NCBI RefSeq assembly: GCF_021389935.1 | Contig: NZ_CP089979.1 | Span: 4,073,001-4,137,000, forward strand | Length of the DNA stretch: 64,000 nt | Direction: 5' to 3' | DNA from: Fulvivirga ligni | GTDB lineage: Bacteria; Bacteroidota; Bacteroidia; Cytophagales; Cyclobacteriaceae | Shown here: in pieces, positions 18,802 to 58,329 of the stretch | How the letters are laid out: every line of letters starts with the position of its first letter | How positions within the stretch are numbered: the stretch's first letter is position 1 | Notes under the pieces: model-generated | Seen by the model: only the letters and a program-made list of their open reading frames with translations | What the model was told of the DNA's origin: nothing | Database searches by the model: none | Program-made: the position numbers and the translations under genes

Positions 18802-21800
18802 TTAGAAAGTGAGATTAAGACCGAGGTTATATCTTTTCACCGTAGGGTAAGCTCCCTGAGATGCCCAGCCTGTACCGGCGAAGTTAGATTCACGATCATC
18901 AGGCATATCCGTCCATAACCACAGGTTGTTACCATTCATGTAGAGGCGTAATGACTCAAAACCTAGCTTCCCTATCCAGGGAGATGAAATGGCGTTAAAT
19001 GTATAGGCCAGTTCCGCATTTTTCAGTCTCACATAAGAACCATCAAACATGTACTGATTGGCTCTATTGTATTCACTAGGTGTAGATAGCCACCTGGGCA
19101 TAGGTGCATCAGGATTGGTGTTATCTCTAGACCAGTAGCTGCCTTCATCATACACCACATGATTTTGAGAACTTAAGCTGGTAAGTACCACCTGGCGAGT
19201 AACGTTATTCACTCCATAAAACTGTACAAAACCACTTAATCCTTTCCATTGGAAGCCTAAAGTGGCATGGTAGGTGTTTTGCGGTGCACCTGAAAAGCCA
19301 TAAGGAATATTATCATAAGAGTCTATGATGCCATCGCCGTTATAATCGACAATGTTATAATTACCTGGAAGTTTCTGATTATCATTAGTGTTATGCTGAG
19401 TGCTGCCATATACTTCATCCCACGAGTTGTAATAGCCATTGCGTACATAAGAATAGGCCTGACCAATTTGCTTACCGGCTCTTTTTTGGTAGTCTGGTAA
19501 TAACTGAGCATCATCGGCAGCCAAAATCTTGTTTTTAGCGTGAGTGAGGTTGAAATTAGACCATAACCTCAAGTTTTGTCCAAACTGATGGTTAAGTCGT
19601 ACTTCTATTTCATATCCTTTGTTTTCTACCTTACCTAAGTTGGCTACCGGAGCGGCGGTTCCGAAATAAGAAGGTATGGCCCTGTCAGTAATCAGAACAT
19701 CGGTTCGGGTGTCTTTGAAAAAATCAACATTACCTTCTAAAAAGCCATTGAAAAAGCCATAGTCAAATCCGAAATTGACCTTCTTCACTTTCTCCCACTG
19801 CACCTGATCATTACCCACGGAAGCTTCTCTATAATACACATAAGGACTCTGCGGAGCAGCCTCACCTGACAATCCTAATCGGGCCTGGCCACCGTACGAC
19901 CATTGGTCTAAATACAGCCATCTGCCGTTCACATTATCATCTCCTATTTCACCGTATGAGGCCCTCAGTTTTAGTAAGTCCAAATATGGTATTGACTCCA
20001 TAAAAGATTCTTTCGAAATGATCCAGCCTAGTCCCCCAGATGAGAAGAAAGCAAAACGGTTTTCTTTACTGAATTTCTCAGATCCGTTATAGGCTCCATT
20101 GTACTCCAGCATATACTTATTATCGAAAGCATAGGTAGTTCTGAACACCCAGTCTTCTCTATAATGCGGTATTTCACTTCCAGTGGCATTTTCATTTCTG
20201 TTGAATAGAGCCATGGCAGTAACATCATGTCTATCAGCCAGATTTACTTTATAGTTCAGCTGAAACTGGTAGAATAGCTTGCGATAAGAAGCATAATCCA
20301 ATACTGTTCCCGGTGCGGAAGTCCATTTTATACCTTCCTGAAAATCAAAGCGATTATTATTATCGTAACTGTTTTTATAGGTTTCCAATCCTGTTACCGG
20401 ATCAATCCATTTTTGCTGATTATCATTATAGAGGTCGTTTACGCCACGGTCACCTTCCAGAAATGAATTATCTAAGGCGATTGTGGCCCTGAAATTCAGG
20501 CCTTTGACCAACTTCTCCAGGTCCTGATCTAAAGTGAAATTGGTATTTAAACGAGTGGTTGTTCTATACTGCACGCCGCTGATAGCCAGCGTTCTCACTG
20601 AGTTTTCTGCTTTACCCTGATTCGGCGCATAATAGCCCCAGCTTCCATCAGCATATTGTGGAAGGAAGGCATCCGGAGCATTACTATAAGCTGCGATCCA
20701 CATACCATATTCTGCTCCGGTCGCCCCCCACGGGCTCTTTTTTTACGCCGTACGACCCTGCCAGTCCTACACTGAGTTTGGTGGAGTTGGTAAGTTGAAA
20801 ATCCAAGTTAGAGCGTACATTTAGCCTGTTAAATCCATATCCAGGATCGTAGCCCCTGTTATTATCAAACTGTCTGAAAAGATCACCTTCTCGCTGAAAA
20901 TCTGCACCAGCAAAATATTTAACGAATTCGGTCCCGCCACTTATATTTAAGCTGGCATTGTATGACATGGCATAATCTTTAAAGAGCGTATTGGCCCAAT
21001 CCACGTTAGGATACCTTTCCATTTCTTCTTGATTAGCAGGATTACGGTATTTATCAATTATGGCCTGAGGTAAATATTCATTCCAGCTGGATGGACTCAT
21101 GGCCAGCTCATATTCTATCACCTCATTTCTAACCTTTAAGGCATCGTAGGCATCATATTTACCGGGCAGCTTGGAGGGCACTTTTACAGTGCTGTTTACA
21201 CGGGCACGGATGGTGGCCTTACCTTCTTTACCACGTTTAGTAGTGATGAGGATAACTCCATTAGCTCCCCGGACACCGTAAACTGCTGTGGCTGAGGCAT
21301 CTTTCAACACAGATATGCTTTCAATAGAACTTATGGCTACGCTGGACATTGGCCTTTCCACTCCATCTACCAGAATCAGTGGTGTAGCATTATTCATGGT
21401 GCTCACCCCACGGATGTAAATGAGTGGATCTTCCTCTCCAGGCATCCCTGTACTGGCGGTAGTGATCACTCCGGGTACGTTACCTGTAAGAGCAGCTCCT
21501 ACACTGGATACACCTCCAGTGCGCTCCAGCGCCTTGCTATCAGTTTGGGTAATAGCGGCCACCACGCTCTCTTTTTTCTGTTCTCCGTAGCCTATAATTA
21601 CTACTTCTTCCAATGAAGTGATATCCTCTTTCAGGCTAACATTAATTTGAGACCTGGCATTTACGGGTACCTCCTGAGTAGCAAAGCCCACGAAACTAAA
21701 CAGTAGCACAGCTTCGTTTGAATTGATTTTGATGCTGTACTTGCCATCAATATCTGTGGTAGTTCCTCTGCCTGTGCCCTTCAAAAGCACCGTTACGCCG

Positions 21801-22036
21801 GGTATTCCTTCCGAGCCATCGGCTGAAGTAACCTGTCCTGTTACTGTTCTCTCACTTTGATAAAGTAATGTCTTTAAAGTAGCGTTTGAGGTATTGTAGC
21901 TGTAATCAGTTGGGCCTTTACTGCTGAGATTGTTGTCGCTGTGTTTTCCATAAGTAGTAGAGTGAAGGAGAAAACATAGCAAGCTCATCATCAGCAAACC
22001 CACCTTGCAGCATGGTTTAGATAAAATTGCTTTCAT
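18802..22036 (-). pseudogene. xusA: SusC/RagA TonB-dependent transporter (XusA-like), interrupted by one frameshift
   Basis: Two overlapping reading frames, 20684-22036 and 18802-20703, are the N- and C-terminal parts of one SusC of about 1077 aa. The first part has a signal peptide, CarboxypepD_reg-like domain (VTGQVTSADGSEGIPGVTVLLKG style), TonB box and plug with VLKDASATAVYGVRGANGVI. The second part holds most of the barrel and ends in NLGLNLTF. The frame changes at a run of seven T (20738-20744, A7 in the mRNA). Removing one base restores VKKSPWGATGAEYGMWIAAYS, the sequence expected for a SusC at this point. As given, the protein would stop early in the barrel. It is the first gene of the xus core. 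A sequencing insertion is the likeliest cause. Confidence 0.9.
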
Positions 22037-22198
22037 ACAAATTGAGTTAATTATTCAACATTTCGTTAAGGTGAAGTTGCAGAGCTGCTAGCCCGGCCTC
22101 AATTGTGGGTAATGGTTTAGGGTGTTTTGGTTAAGGTTATTCATGGTTGTTAAGGTTTATGTTTCAAGTAAGTAATGCTTTAAAGCTCCACCATCAGA

Positions 22199-23927
22199 TC
22201 AAAGCCTGTTGGTGGCGTACATGCCTACCGTAGTTCCGGTAAAGCCAAATGAATTAGCCGTTGATAAATATTGGGCACTGATATTTTCAGCAATGGTCTC
22301 CCATTTTTCGCCATCAGTGCTGCAGTAAAAGTTAAAATTGGTGCCATCAGAAGTAACCTTCAGGTCTATCTTATAATTTCCGGAAGGCAGTGGTTTACGC
22401 TCTATTTCCTCTGTTCCGTTTTCTGAGATCTTCTGTAGAGATACCCTCATTTGACTGTCAGTACCATGAATAGCGAGGAAATACTGGTGCTTTTCATCCT
22501 TATAGAGCAGCAGACCAGCGGCGTCAGCTGCTGTGGCCGGTTCAAAGTGAATGGTAGAATTGACTTCAAACTTATGGTGTTGAATTCTTCGTGCTATAAA
22601 GGGTAATTCCTTCTTTTTCTGTAGATGCTACCGGCGCACATTTCAAAGCTAAATAGCCAGGATTATCTGTTAGAGAATAATAATCTAAAGCTCTACCTCT
22701 CATGGTGAACCATTCTTGATTAAGCTCCTGATTATCAAATGATTCTAATCGATTGAAGTTACCAAATACTGGCTTTTCAGCTCTTTGGAGACCATTCATC
22801 TGCACTACTCTGGGCACTTCTTCATTATCTCTGGTGATGTACGGATAGCCATCGTCACTCCACTTTACAGGCATTAGAAAAGTCTCTCTGCCCAGATTTT
22901 CAAACTCATTATTGATTGGCCGGCAGCCTAAAAACACGGACCACCATTCTCCGTTGGGCTTTTGCACTAAATCAGCATGCCCGGCACAGGTAATCGGCTT
23001 ATTTCTGGAGGGATTTAAATGCTTTTGGGTAAGAATGGGGTTTTGATCCCAAGGTGTGAAAGTTCCCATGGGACTATCTCCTTTAAAGATCACTTCTCTA
23101 TGATTCACTGAGGTACCACCCTCAGCGCACATCAGAAAATATTGGCCTTTGATCTTATACAAGTGCGGTCCTTCAATCCAAACCGGTTTTTCAGAGATAT
23201 CAACACCACCATTGATCAGTACTTTTCTGAGACCAAATGTCTTTTCCGCTTCTACGTCAAACTGCTGAACTCTTATGGCTCTGTGACCATCATAAGTAGA
23301 GCCTTCCTCAGGCTCATCGTTATTCACGATGTAGGCCTTACCATCATCATCAAAGAAAAACGAGGGATCAATGCCCTTCACCTCAGGAAGCCATATCGGC
23401 TCTGACCACTCACCAAACGGATCCTTCGTCTTCACAAAGAAATTGCCCTTGGCTATGTTAGTGGTAATCATGTAATAGGTTTGATTATTCGGATTGTAGC
23501 TGATGGCTGGCGCAAAAATACCCTGACTGGTCCGTTGTCCATCTAGCGGTAATTGCGATGGTCTATTAAGCACATGACCGATCTGCTTCCAGTTCACCAG
23601 ATCTTTACTATGGAAAATAGGTACACCCGGAAAGTAAGAAAAGGTAGATGTTACCAGAAAATAATCATCACCATTAGCGCATACACTTGGGTCTGAATAC
23701 CATCCTGGTAAAATGGGATTATAGAAGTAGTCATTGCCCGGCAGCGGATTGTCATTATAAAAATCATCATTGCCGATATAGTTGAAGGAATCAAAATAGG
23801 CTATTGACTTTTGTCTATTCTCCGGACCTTTAGAGCCATTACCATCCAGCCGAGAGCTGCATGATGTTATAAGGAGAATAAGGGAAAAGTAAAGTAGTAG
23901 GTTGGGTTGAGTAAGTAGTTTTAGCAT
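22199..23927 (-). pseudogene. GH43 lipoprotein (xylosidase/arabinofuranosidase type), interrupted by one frameshift
   Basis: The main frame 22572-23927 encodes a GH43 propeller with lipobox ITSC (Cys23), general base Asp79 (WYSDPSV), Asp187 (GIDPSFF) and acid Glu252 (IEGPHLY). The frame then stops, but a second frame continues to 22199 with a concanavalin-like C-terminal domain of beta-xylosidases (RRIQHHKFEV ... TGTTVGMYATNRL). The shift maps to a T5 run at 22614-22618. Removing one base joins the two as EKKELPFIARRIQHH, giving 575 aa, the usual length. As a lipoprotein it may act at the surface or outer periplasm on arabinoxylan fragments. It lies 162 nt upstream of xusA on the same strand. 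Confidence 0.88.
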
Positions 23928-48617: not shown

Positions 48618-48710
48618 GCCATTTCTCCTAGCGTCGCACGGCTCTGCCGTGTGGATGCTATTTCTGAGGTCTCTGCCAATTAGTTACAGATGCACTTGAA
48701 GAACTAGCAT
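48618..48710 (+). repeat. Dispersed repeat R4, copy 1
   Basis: A segment with CGCACGGCTCTGCCGTGTG followed by a CTATTTCTGAGG stretch. It is the reverse complement of the right ends of R4 copies at 53700-53945 and 55945-56255 (GTCACGCGGCAGAGCCGAGCG, CAGAAATAG). The sequence has diverged in places. Confidence 0.7.
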
Positions 48711-52955: not shown

Positions 52956-53639
52956 TTATTCCTTAAGTATTTCTTCATTTACAATAGGTCTTTCGTTAAA
53001 ATACAATGTGTCAATCTTATTGTCACTTACTGTTAAAATTGTGGTATGTATAGCATTAAATGTTCCATTATGCCATAGTCTTACAAATTTGAAGTCATTA
53101 ATTCCATCTTTGTTGAAATCCACAACTTCAATTTCAGGTGTAGTGATTTCAAAGTCTGTTTTTAGATTTGTTGAAGTTAGTTTTCCATTGTTGTGGTGGT
53201 ACAAACCGAAAAGATTAAAGTCAAACACGCTGTTTGCAAATTCCTTCTGTTGATTGTCATAAAATAGCACTCTGCTATTAACTTCACCTGTCGGATAATG
53301 CTTCAAAAGAACTAAATATATAGTCTGTAGGCTGTCGTGTAGTCGAACTGTGTTTATATAAATGTCTTTATATGTTTGAGTACTATCAAAATATTCAAAA
53401 TCTTTAGCATAGACTTTAACCGTTTCTTCAATTTTGGAATTGATTCCGTCATTCAAATGAACGTAATTGTTATGGTCTTCAAAATTTAGCTCATTTAGTC
53501 GTAATGGCAGTTTCCCGTCAATTACTGATATTTCAAATTTACCTGAAGGCTTATTTTTATGGTTAATATCTTTTTCCGATTTTCTATCAGAGCAACTAAA
53601 CATAATTGTCAGTAAAAATATGGCAGCTAACGTTCGCAT
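52956..53639 (-). CDS. Lipoprotein of unknown function
   Basis: A lipoprotein of 227 aa from the ATG at 53639 (MRTLAAIFLLTIMFSC). The frame is open to 53672 but those residues spoil the signal. The C-terminal part contains IEVVDFNKDGINDFKFVR, a calcium-binding-like D.N.DG..D loop as in FG-GAP/VCBS-type propeller repeats. No family was assigned. It stands alone between repeat-containing spacers. Confidence 0.75.
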   Translation of the reverse strand: MRTLAAIFLLTIMFSCSDRKSEKDINHKNKPSGKFEISVIDGKLPLRLNELNFEDHNNYVHLNDGINSKIEETVKVYAKDFEYFDSTQTYKDIYINTVRLHDSLQTIYLVLLKHYPTGEVNSRVLFYDNQQKEFANSVFDFNLFGLYHHNNGKLTSTNLKTDFEITTPEIEVVDFNKDGINDFKFVRLWHNGTFNAIHTTILTVSDNKIDTLYFNERPIVNEEILKE

Positions 53640-53699: not shown

Positions 53700-53945
53700 T
53701 CATTAGCTTGGTCGCTAACTTGATTGCGGCCTTATTCTCCTGCACAATCGCTCAGCTCCAGCTGAGTGATCAATATAATTTAGGCCTATGGCCGATAAAG
53801 CACAAAATGCCCTAAGGCCTAAATATTGAACAAGTAGAGAAGAATCTGACTTAACCTAGTCCTAACCATAGTTAAGTGCATCTGTACCTAACCGGCCAGA
53901 GGCCACAGAAATAGTCGTCACGCGGCAGAACCGAGCGACTGGGGG
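53700..53945 (-). repeat. Dispersed repeat R4, copy 2
   Basis: Fills the 277-nt gap before the next gene. It shares TAACCGGCCAGAGGCC, CAGAAATAGTCGTCACGCGG and AACAAGTAGAGAA with copy 3 at 55945-56255 and, reverse-complemented, with 48618-48710. It contains a CAGCTCCAGCTGAG palindrome and paired GGCCTA/TAGGCC motifs. Confidence 0.75.
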
Positions 53946-53949
53946 GGAA

Positions 53950-55944: not shown

Positions 55945-56255
55945 ACCCTAGGTTTGTTGCCAATTATATTGCGACCTTATTCTTTTGGCATTTGTAATGC
56001 TTCTGTTCTCAAACTTAATGAATAAAGACATTACAAATGCCCATGAAAATAGCAATCTCAATGTAATTGCGATCGAGCTTAAATTTATAACTCTGGCCAA
56101 TAAAGCACGAAATATCCTAAGCCTAAATACTGAACAAGTAGAGAAAATCTGATTTAACCTGGATCTAACCACAGTTATTCAAGTGCCTCAGCACCTAACC
56201 GGCCAGAGGCCTCAGAAATAGTCGTCACGCGGCAGAGCCGAGCGACTGCGGGAGA
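55945..56255 (-). repeat. Dispersed repeat R4, copy 3, with internal hairpin
   Basis: Lies in the 500-nt gap between the DUF4272 gene and the nuclease operon. It contains a perfect 13-bp inverted repeat GGCATTTGTAATG (55987-55999) / CATTACAAATGCC (56029-56041) that is absent from copy 2. The part from about 56090 on matches copy 2 closely. The GCATTACAAATGC core also occurs inside R1. Confidence 0.75.
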
Positions 56256-56262
56256 ACGAGGC

Positions 56263-56748
56263 TCAGTTATATATAAGACTTAGAATCCTTACACTTAATT
56301 CCATCACTTCTTTATCTGAATGACCTTCTTGATCCATTAGCTCATTCATAAAATGAAAATGAGTAAATATAAATTTTTCGAGCTCATCAATGTTGAATTG
56401 AATTAAACTTACCCCTGAAGATTTCTGGATATCTTCAATGGGACATAAACAAGTAACAAATAAAGCCAAGGGTGAATAATGCTTAGGAAAGTCATGATTT
56501 AAATAATAAAACCAATATGGGAAAGACCTATCTAGAAAGTCAAGGTAGTCTCTTATTTCTGGCAATTCATGTAACTCTCTTGGATCATTGTCATATCCAT
56601 GAATTAAAATACATAGTTTATTGTAGAATTTTCTTGGGTTTTCATGCATTTCCATTAATGCACCATAAATGTTAGTAAAATCAAATTCTTCAATATCTTC
56701 CCTTGAGATAACTAAATTGATTAGTTTATGCTCTTCTCCTAAATTCAT
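56263..56748 (-). CDS. Small CRR6-like protein, partner of the nuclease gene
   Basis: A cytoplasmic protein of 161 aa. The central motif IHGYDNDPRELHELPEIRDYL ... LDRSFPYWFYYL resembles a widespread uncharacterised bacterial family related to the chlororespiratory reduction 6 domain. The ATG overlaps the stop of the upstream gene (ATGA at 56745-56748), so the two are translationally coupled. It may be a regulator, chaperone or immunity-type partner of the nuclease. This is inferred from coupling only. Confidence 0.72.
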   Translation of the reverse strand: MNLGEEHKLINLVISREDIEEFDFTNIYGALMEMHENPRKFYNKLCILIHGYDNDPRELHELPEIRDYLDFLDRSFPYWFYYLNHDFPKHYSPLALFVTCLCPIEDIQKSSGVSLIQFNIDELEKFIFTHFHFMNELMDQEGHSDKEVMELSVRILSLIYN

Positions 56749-58329
56749 TTCAATAAATCATCAAATTCTTCAAATGTTAAAACTTTATATTCGTCCACAA
56801 GATATTTTAATGTGTCATTCGACCCAGTTATGAAATATTCTTCAAACGTTACATCCTGTGCAATTTCAATATTAACTCTTTTCAGGAATTCATGCCTTAT
56901 TGATGACATATTAGATTTGACCCAAGCAATTTTTTTTAAAAACTTTTGGTGGTATTTCTTTTGCCGAAAATGATCATTTATTACTTGACCTAAGCTTCGA
57001 GCATCAACTATAGGAGCTAAAGCCTTACACTCAATAATTCGAATCAGTTTTTCCGATTCATTATAGGCAAGAATGTCAATTTCTCCACAAGAAATTGGTT
57101 TTCCATTAACTTTTTCAAGACGTAAGCACCTATTACTTTTATCTTCAAGCAATTTTGTTACCTCTTTTTCAAATATCGATATTCGATAAAAAGATTCAAT
57201 CTCAGCAATTGCCTTATTCTGTAAAGAATTCGATTTTAAATCTTGCCTTTGCCCTAATGAAAGCTTAGTGATATACACATCCAACCATTCAACAAACATT
57301 CTCTGGCTAATCAAAATGTGCTGTCTCGATTTTTTTATATCATCCCTATTTGCAGTTTTTTTATCATATATAGTTTCGAATTCGGATTCCAAATTTAGAA
57401 CTATGCCAGCATGAAATAACATTCTATTATGTTGACTCTTTCTGAGAAAGTCTCTTTGTTCATTGGCTTGAGCACTGATATTTAAAAATGATAAACTAAT
57501 AAGAGATTCTATTTTAGATCCAGCTATACCAGTAAGAGATGCTAATAAGTCAATAAAGTCATTTAAGGGTTGCACCGTGATGGAAGCTCCAGTCACATTA
57601 GAAATTTTTTCTATTATTGTTTTAATAATTAATCGAATTTCTTCAATTGAAATAGAGTAGAATTCTTGACTAAAGTTATTCACTTTAGTCGTTATTATTC
57701 TATTGTTAGGTGCAAAACTGGAATATTTGTTCCAGTCAGTTTTTTTTAAAAATTGATTCTCGTATTTTTTGGAAGAGCTCTTTTTCAGGTGGTTTGAGTA
57801 TAAATAATTTACGAAATAGGTCGGGGGAAAAAACAATTTTAACAGAGGATATTTTTTTACTTAGATTTAGATAATGTAAATAATTTGAAAATTCTGAGGA
57901 CTGCCCCATACCAATGAGATATGTTAAAATCAGGGTCATTTGTTTTTCATTAGGCCTTATCTGTTCATATTCATATTCTCCAGACGCTAACCTTTCTAGT
58001 TCAATTTCAATTACGTATCTCCAACCATACCGTCCAATTGGAGCAAATTCTTTGTGCCCTGTTATATATTCAATACCATCCTCAAAATAAATAACTGTCC
58101 ATAGTTCCAATTGCTTATATGCTTCTACAATAACACCAGCTGGGTGAATTTTATTAAGTTCTTTTAAGAGTTGATTTTTAAGATCCTCATAACAATCATT
58201 ATAGAACTTTTTTACGGTGCTTATCTCAGAAATCTCATTAAATTTTTCTTTTGGCCAACAGTTGAATATTGTTCTATTTAAAACTGAATCTTGAGGTGTT
58301 TGATATGGACTTACTTTATGAATTTTCAA
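56745..58329 (-). pseudogene. PD-(D/E)XK nuclease-like protein, interrupted by one frameshift
   Basis: Frames 57736-58329 and 56745-57836 overlap and are two halves of one protein of about 527 aa. They join at a T8 run (57740-57747, A8 in the mRNA); removing one base gives RESIFKKTDWNKYSSFAPNNR. The N-terminal half is unrecognised. Near the C-terminus a restriction-endonuclease-like core is visible: GEIDILAYNESEKLIRIIECK, with Glu416, Asp418, Glu433 and Lys435 in the restored numbering (57024-57083). This is the E..D...(D/E)xK pattern. The gene is visibly richer in A+T than the hydrolase loci, which suggests acquisition. It is coupled to the small gene at 56263. A defence or DNA-repair role is possible but not shown. 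Confidence 0.72.

Follow-up and report, generated by a model that had tools for sequence, protein, structure and literature searches.

A pair of overlapping genes in Fulvivirga ligni encodes a compact protein related to the C-terminal half of the nuclease Upx, together with a small protein of the Crr6 (DUF1817) family. Both genes lie on the minus strand of the window, i.e. the whole stretch of 64,000 nucleotides that was analysed. Taken as a whole, the pair is best explained, with a probability of about one half, as an accessory Upx-type defence nuclease accompanied by a Crr6-like binding partner. The nuclease would have a PD-(D/E)XK nuclease domain preceded by an N-terminal region, and its translation would be coupled to that of the Crr6-like protein. 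As an accessory defence effector, it would cut invading DNA, or cellular DNA when triggered, and the small partner would most likely bind it and mature, hold or release it. Upx is a named antiviral defence protein, the 1272-aa 'Restriction endonuclease' entered as PDLC02221 in PADLOC and as 9wuf in the PDB, and the Crr6 family is best known from photosynthesis.

Three minus-strand open reading frames (ORFs) were confirmed at the locus, as was the overlap, described in the first-pass annotation, between the stop of the nuclease and the start of the small gene (Table 1). The frames at this locus are too long to be due to chance: the longest stop-free run spans 371 codons, against a maximum of 126 in 1000 base shuffles, none of which gave a run of at least 197. 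Moreover, the pair is A+T-rich and adjoins an interspersed repeat of about 175 bp, as had been described, with a G+C content of 0.302 versus 0.408 in the whole window. The host genome is a single 6.5-Mb contig in which the stretch is present once, the sole further match being 54 bp long. A DNA search of 37 other genomes of the genus, family and order, with up to seven candidates scored per genome, did not find the gene pair; the matches in these genomes lay outside both genes, nearly all of them in or near the downstream repeat. Furthermore, a PADLOC scan of two neighbours in the window returned one weak match only (0.015), and no RNA family exceeded its gathering score between window positions 53000 and 59000.

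Table 1. Features of the gene pair and its immediate surroundings (positions are those of the window)
Feature	Position	Strand	Description
N-terminal nuclease ORF	57736..58329	-	197 aa, TTG start; without detectable homology
C-terminal nuclease ORF	56745..57836	-	363 aa; PD-(D/E)XK-type core, relative of the Upx C-terminal half
Active-site motif E-I-D ... E-C-K	57024..57083	-	From the ORF translation; aligned with the family and with Upx
Overlap of the 197-aa and 363-aa ORFs	57736..57836	-	Frame changes here
Crr6-like (DUF1817) gene	56263..56748	-	161 aa; ATG overlaps the nuclease stop (ATGA)
Interspersed repeat	56082..56256	-	Starts 6 bp past the stop of the Crr6-like gene

The two nuclease ORFs lie in different frames, and a protein of 527 aa is obtained only by reading through the frame break; the intact 527-aa gene of the first-pass annotation is not present in the sequence. 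The two ORFs would nevertheless represent one gene, because of their overlap, their order and their total length (527 aa versus 534-581 aa in relatives). The break is likely a sequencing error or decay, and a sequencing error is its simplest cause because two other genes within the same 64 kb are similarly broken. These are a gene for a SusC-type receptor (window 18802-22036), found as two overlapping ORFs in different frames that encode the plug half (450 aa) and the barrel half (633 aa), and a GH43 xylosidase gene (window ~22190-23927), which has an early stop and whose C-terminal domain is carried on in another frame. The alternatives for the nuclease gene are real decay and a two-subunit arrangement.

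Relatives of the nuclease are thinly scattered. With the 363-aa ORF alone, they were found in two of 395 genomes of the phylum including its own, i.e. in one of the 394 others, while no homologues appeared in plasmids, in phages or in a peptide-pattern scan of genome contigs. That sole phylum relative, a protein of 561 aa, opened a wider family, which is represented at 14 loci in named genomes and on plasmids of Hymenobacter and Enterobacter. Profile searches located this family in 10 of 245 genomes of the taxonomic family (profile A3) and in 5 of 375 genomes of the class (profile A8), both counts including the own genome and long Upx-like proteins. Full-length short members measure 534-581 aa, and the same C-terminal domain recurs in the long members, whose open frames span 1244-1284 codons, or 957 in a single instance. 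In profile comparisons, the read-through protein matched two distant short relatives over residues 332-504 (probability 96.7, score 80.8) and the Upx-like C-terminal halves (probability 91, score 58.7), with a weaker match to the best-populated short group (probability 23, score 35.9). The top score among the controls, which comprised 60 shuffles for each of three profiles plus 34 window ORFs, was 25.2, and for the two profiles that gave 80.8 and 58.7 the controls stayed at or below 24.4. Judged by these scores, the C-terminal part of the nuclease is clearly homologous both to the stand-alone short proteins and to the C-terminal half of Upx. For the first 165 residues of the read-through protein, no homology above chance was found and only position and length are claimed, because their scores were equalled by 7, 9 and 9 of 60 shuffles. 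The nuclease scored above the cut-off of no Pfam or NCBIfam family (the best Pfam match was DUF234, at 19.3 bits versus 22.5), and neither of its two ORFs matched Upx or any other PADLOC model at E ≤ 1.

The active-site motif lies exactly where the first-pass annotation had placed it, comprising E252, D254 and E269-C270-K271 of the 363-aa ORF, or E416-I-D418 ... E433-C-K435 in the numbering of the read-through protein. G415, E416, D418 and K435 are invariant in an alignment of nine sequences, and the acidic residues are followed by (D/E)-X-K in conserved spacing, as in the PD-(D/E)XK motif. Metal-dependent DNA cleavage, a property of PD-(D/E)XK nucleases, would be predicted. Modelling of the joined 527-aa protein, as the first-pass annotation had envisaged, was poor, with an overall pLDDT of 44.6 (15 sequences) and a top PDB match to Upx that was not significant (E 0.094). 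Over part of its C-terminal domain, the block-mean pLDDT reached 66-83, and the succession of a helix, strands, helices and a strand in this domain is the one expected of PD-(D/E)XK. In contrast, a relative from Mangrovibacterium lignilyticum (L042), which shares 20% identity with the window protein (alignment A11), gave a confident model (pLDDT 86.9, pTM 0.86), for which Upx 9wuf was the one PDB match to reach E ≤ 0.001 (E 3.2e−8, probability 1.00, 551 columns; TM 0.58 by query length, rmsd 7.3). Matches of this model to McrC chains and R2 endonucleases were not significant (E 0.06-0.5), with probabilities of up to 0.93. Sequence searches of the PDB with the read-through protein, the Crr6 alignment and the short-nuclease profile found nothing. 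The earlier assignment to PD-(D/E)XK is thus supported through homology to a family with a confidently modelled relative that matches Upx.

The relation to Upx was also evident in the long members of the family. Both of the long relatives scanned matched the PADLOC model of Upx (L038 at 2.7e−31, L039 at 7.4e−29), and a profile of four long relatives (A6) matched the solved chain 9wuf_A at 8.2e−42; among five short relatives, one matched the PADLOC model weakly (L029, 0.0017) and the other four did not. The window nuclease and Upx have the same C-terminal PD-(D/E)XK-type motif (GEIDIL ... IECK here, GDIDLL ... IECK in 9wuf), and a relative of the former with about 540 aa superposes on about half of Upx. 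Nevertheless, the window nuclease is 527 aa long versus 1272, about half of Upx being missing, and differs further in its ORFs having no PADLOC match to Upx, in its N-terminal 165 residues being without detectable homology and in the Crr6-like gene that lies downstream. In the available text of two papers (PMC12629846; PMC10855318), Upx is mentioned only as a named system, which the latter credits to Gao et al. 2020.

Turning to the second gene, the 161-aa protein had been called CRR6-like in the first-pass annotation, and its score of 35.3 bits against the Pfam family Crr6 (PF08847) passes the cut-off of 25. On the other hand, it stays far below the equivalog cut-off of NF038024, the cyanobacterial NdhI maturation factor (35.7 versus 125 bits), from which it also differs in having a nuclease as its partner and a host that looks like a non-photosynthetic Bacteroidota, to judge from its xylan-utilisation genes and its relatives. 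By its sequence, it is a genuine but distant relative of Crr6/DUF1817. Within the phylum sample, Pfam detected Crr6 in the own genome only (1 of 395), and direct searches found Crr6-like genes in 47 plasmid records, 16 of which were examined with their flanks. These 16 plasmid proteins and that of locus L006 have in common a signature around GYDxDPREL-x-EIPEVR, and four of the nine plasmid proteins scanned with Pfam exceeded the Crr6 cut-off. Locus L007 holds an incomplete and divergent Crr6-like ORF that Pfam does not match, while matches in L008, L009 and L010 were dropped for having a stop inside the match and unrelated ORFs around it. A viral scan with the 161-aa sequence gave no match; the signature pattern led to four viral contigs (L061-L064), all with Crr6 profile matches, and in L064 the Crr6-like ORF adjoins apparent phage head and terminase genes (ORFs judged by eye). 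The neighbours of other Crr6-like genes were varied, including AbiE toxin-antitoxin genes, a UvrD helicase, site-specific integrases with an HTH gene, and metabolic genes. In particular, AbiE-type genes directly adjoin the Crr6-like gene in two of the 16 plasmid loci (L021, L025), and in two Comamonadaceae plasmids (L014 3413-5610, L020 3426-5619) an HTH gene and a site-specific integrase flank it within one closely spaced operon.

Two of 17 Crr6-like loci, L006 and L016 (Pseudanabaena WP_126391473), encode a DUF4365 domain in the same protein, at 106 and 113 bits, respectively. The Crr6 parts of these fusions remain under the Pfam cut-off of 25 (13.7 and 13.5 bits), and their assignment comes from direct comparison with the window protein (8e−9, and 9e−8 over 52% of it), as well as, for L016, from the annotation of the record itself. 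They resemble the window pair in combining a Crr6-like domain with a PD-(D/E)XK-type nuclease domain, but the nuclease is DUF4365 and the protein single and fused, whereas an Upx-like nuclease and two overlapping genes are found here. Such fusions give partial support to a possible functional link between the Crr6-like protein and the nuclease. According to the available text of PMC10810196, the DUF4365 nuclease of a short-Argonaute system breaks down DNA once activated. DUF4365 nucleases joined to other control domains, known for such activated degradation of DNA, are the nearest precedent for a controlling domain on a nuclease of this type. A DUF4365-APAZ or short-Argonaute system (SPARDA-type) was rejected for the window itself, where five ORFs were scanned and neither DUF4365 nor an Argonaute-system match was found.

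The pair was not supported as a conserved two-gene module, as the first-pass annotation had framed it. A Crr6 profile search spanning 64 loci showed no Crr6-like ORF, in flanks of about 0.3-6 kb, at any of the 20 other short-nuclease loci (L004, L028, L029, L034, L035, L041-L054 and L056; L031-L033 were left out as duplicates of L049, L052 and L050, with identical profile scores), nor was one found near the seven long Upx-like loci (L036-L039, L057-L059), so that the pairing is not conserved. Likewise, none of the 17 Crr6-like loci (16 in plasmids and L006) had an Upx-like nuclease in the available flanks, and no annotated nuclease stood directly beside the 16 plasmid Crr6-like genes except in the fusions, many of these neighbours being hypothetical. 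The close overlap of the two genes here and the fusions elsewhere are what still speaks for a partnership of the two proteins, which is no more than suggestive.

These counts would agree with a chance meeting in accessory DNA between a Upx-like nuclease gene in decay and a Crr6-like gene that is neither related to it nor shares a function with it, which we consider possible but rather unlikely. Such a meeting would also be in line with the frame break, the variable neighbours of both families and the low G+C content of a stretch with repeats. However, the two genes overlap by start and stop, two Crr6-nuclease fusions exist elsewhere, the open frames have remained long, and the other broken genes of the window point to sequencing error. 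Coupled translation, as the ATGA overlap suggests, would in turn suit a pair resembling a toxin-antitoxin system, in which the Crr6-like protein restrains a host-damaging nuclease and, being labile, is lost during infection or plasmid loss, with release of the nuclease. The presence of Crr6-like genes in plasmids, two of them beside AbiE-type genes, points in the same direction, but the short nuclease relatives occur without a nearby Crr6-like gene in all 20 cases and, apart from the fusions, nucleases are not annotated next to the plasmid Crr6-like genes examined, many of whose neighbours are hypothetical; we consider this arrangement unlikely.

The reading as an accessory defence nuclease with a Crr6-like partner draws its functional part from Upx: kinship with that protein lends plausibility to a role in defence. 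Counting against this reading are the lack of Crr6-like genes at the other short-nuclease loci, the weak match to the best-populated short group, the poor model of the window protein, the N-terminal third without detectable homology and the frame break. Regarding the 'new defence or repair module' of the first-pass annotation, defence thus remains plausible, while the composition is not unprecedented, the nuclease being a relative of Upx. The neighbourhood of the relatives was scanned with PADLOC in 70 of 144 non-nuclease ORFs from 13 loci (L041 was left out), and 72 families were matched at E ≤ 1e−5. The first 25 of them, matched by one ORF each, include PDC-S32, OLD/AriA/Gabija-like ATPases, WYL and SspE. 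This defence-like neighbourhood is only suggestive because the scan had no control set. In locus L035 (271-2655), a short Upx-like nuclease is followed after ~20 bp by a gene whose 249-aa product is similar to the HEPN partner found in reverse-transcriptase defence systems (4.7e−8, PADLOC). A nuclease that serves DNA repair or housekeeping and has no part in defence is very improbable: several relatives look solitary by position, with flanking ORFs on the other strand or distant, but the very patchy spread of the family in both genome samples (A3 and A8), the relation to Upx and the occurrence of some relatives near defence-like genes, albeit in that scan without a control, argue against it.

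The repeat beside the pair was analysed separately. Besides the copy next to the Crr6-like gene, it appears at window positions 53777-53949, at further sites of the same genome (L080-L082) and in two other members of the genus (L083-L085), and its consensus contains 13-bp inverted segments, as seen by eye. Six of the 14 aligned copies, a set that excludes two partial ones (window 48633-48705 and L083 2950-3029), start at most 10 bp past the point where an unrelated, equally oriented ORF of 90 aa or more stops, a placement that looks cassette-like. An integron cassette array was rejected because no integron integrase (TIGR02249) scored above the cut-off in the own genome, where ten matches fell below it. 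As for an attC site, the repeat does follow the gene; the paired core sites of attC were not seen in it by eye, and its single-strand fold was unremarkable (z −1.68).

Neither the pairing of Crr6 with a nuclease nor the short Upx family appeared in an open-access paper among the matches listed, subscription papers and outside preprints lying beyond this coverage. In a more general reading, Crr6-like (DUF1817) proteins outside photosynthesis would be accessory to PD-(D/E)XK defence nucleases at large, a module present on plasmids and islands either as DUF4365 fusions or as Upx-like coupled genes and aiding the folding or release of the nuclease, in a way comparable to the maturation of NdhI by CRR6; so broad a role is speculative and quite doubtful. 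The gene pair itself is informative, though probably an ordinary one of defence type. With these findings, nucleases of the Upx kind come to include a scattered family of about half the length of Upx, whose members stand as genes of their own and have a homologous region within the long proteins, in their C-terminal half. Because this short family occurs as solitary genes, the C-terminal half of Upx may be a self-sufficient effector. Finally, the window pair offers an initial clue to the 'chlororespiratory reduction 6' proteins that are annotated on plasmids of non-photosynthetic organisms.
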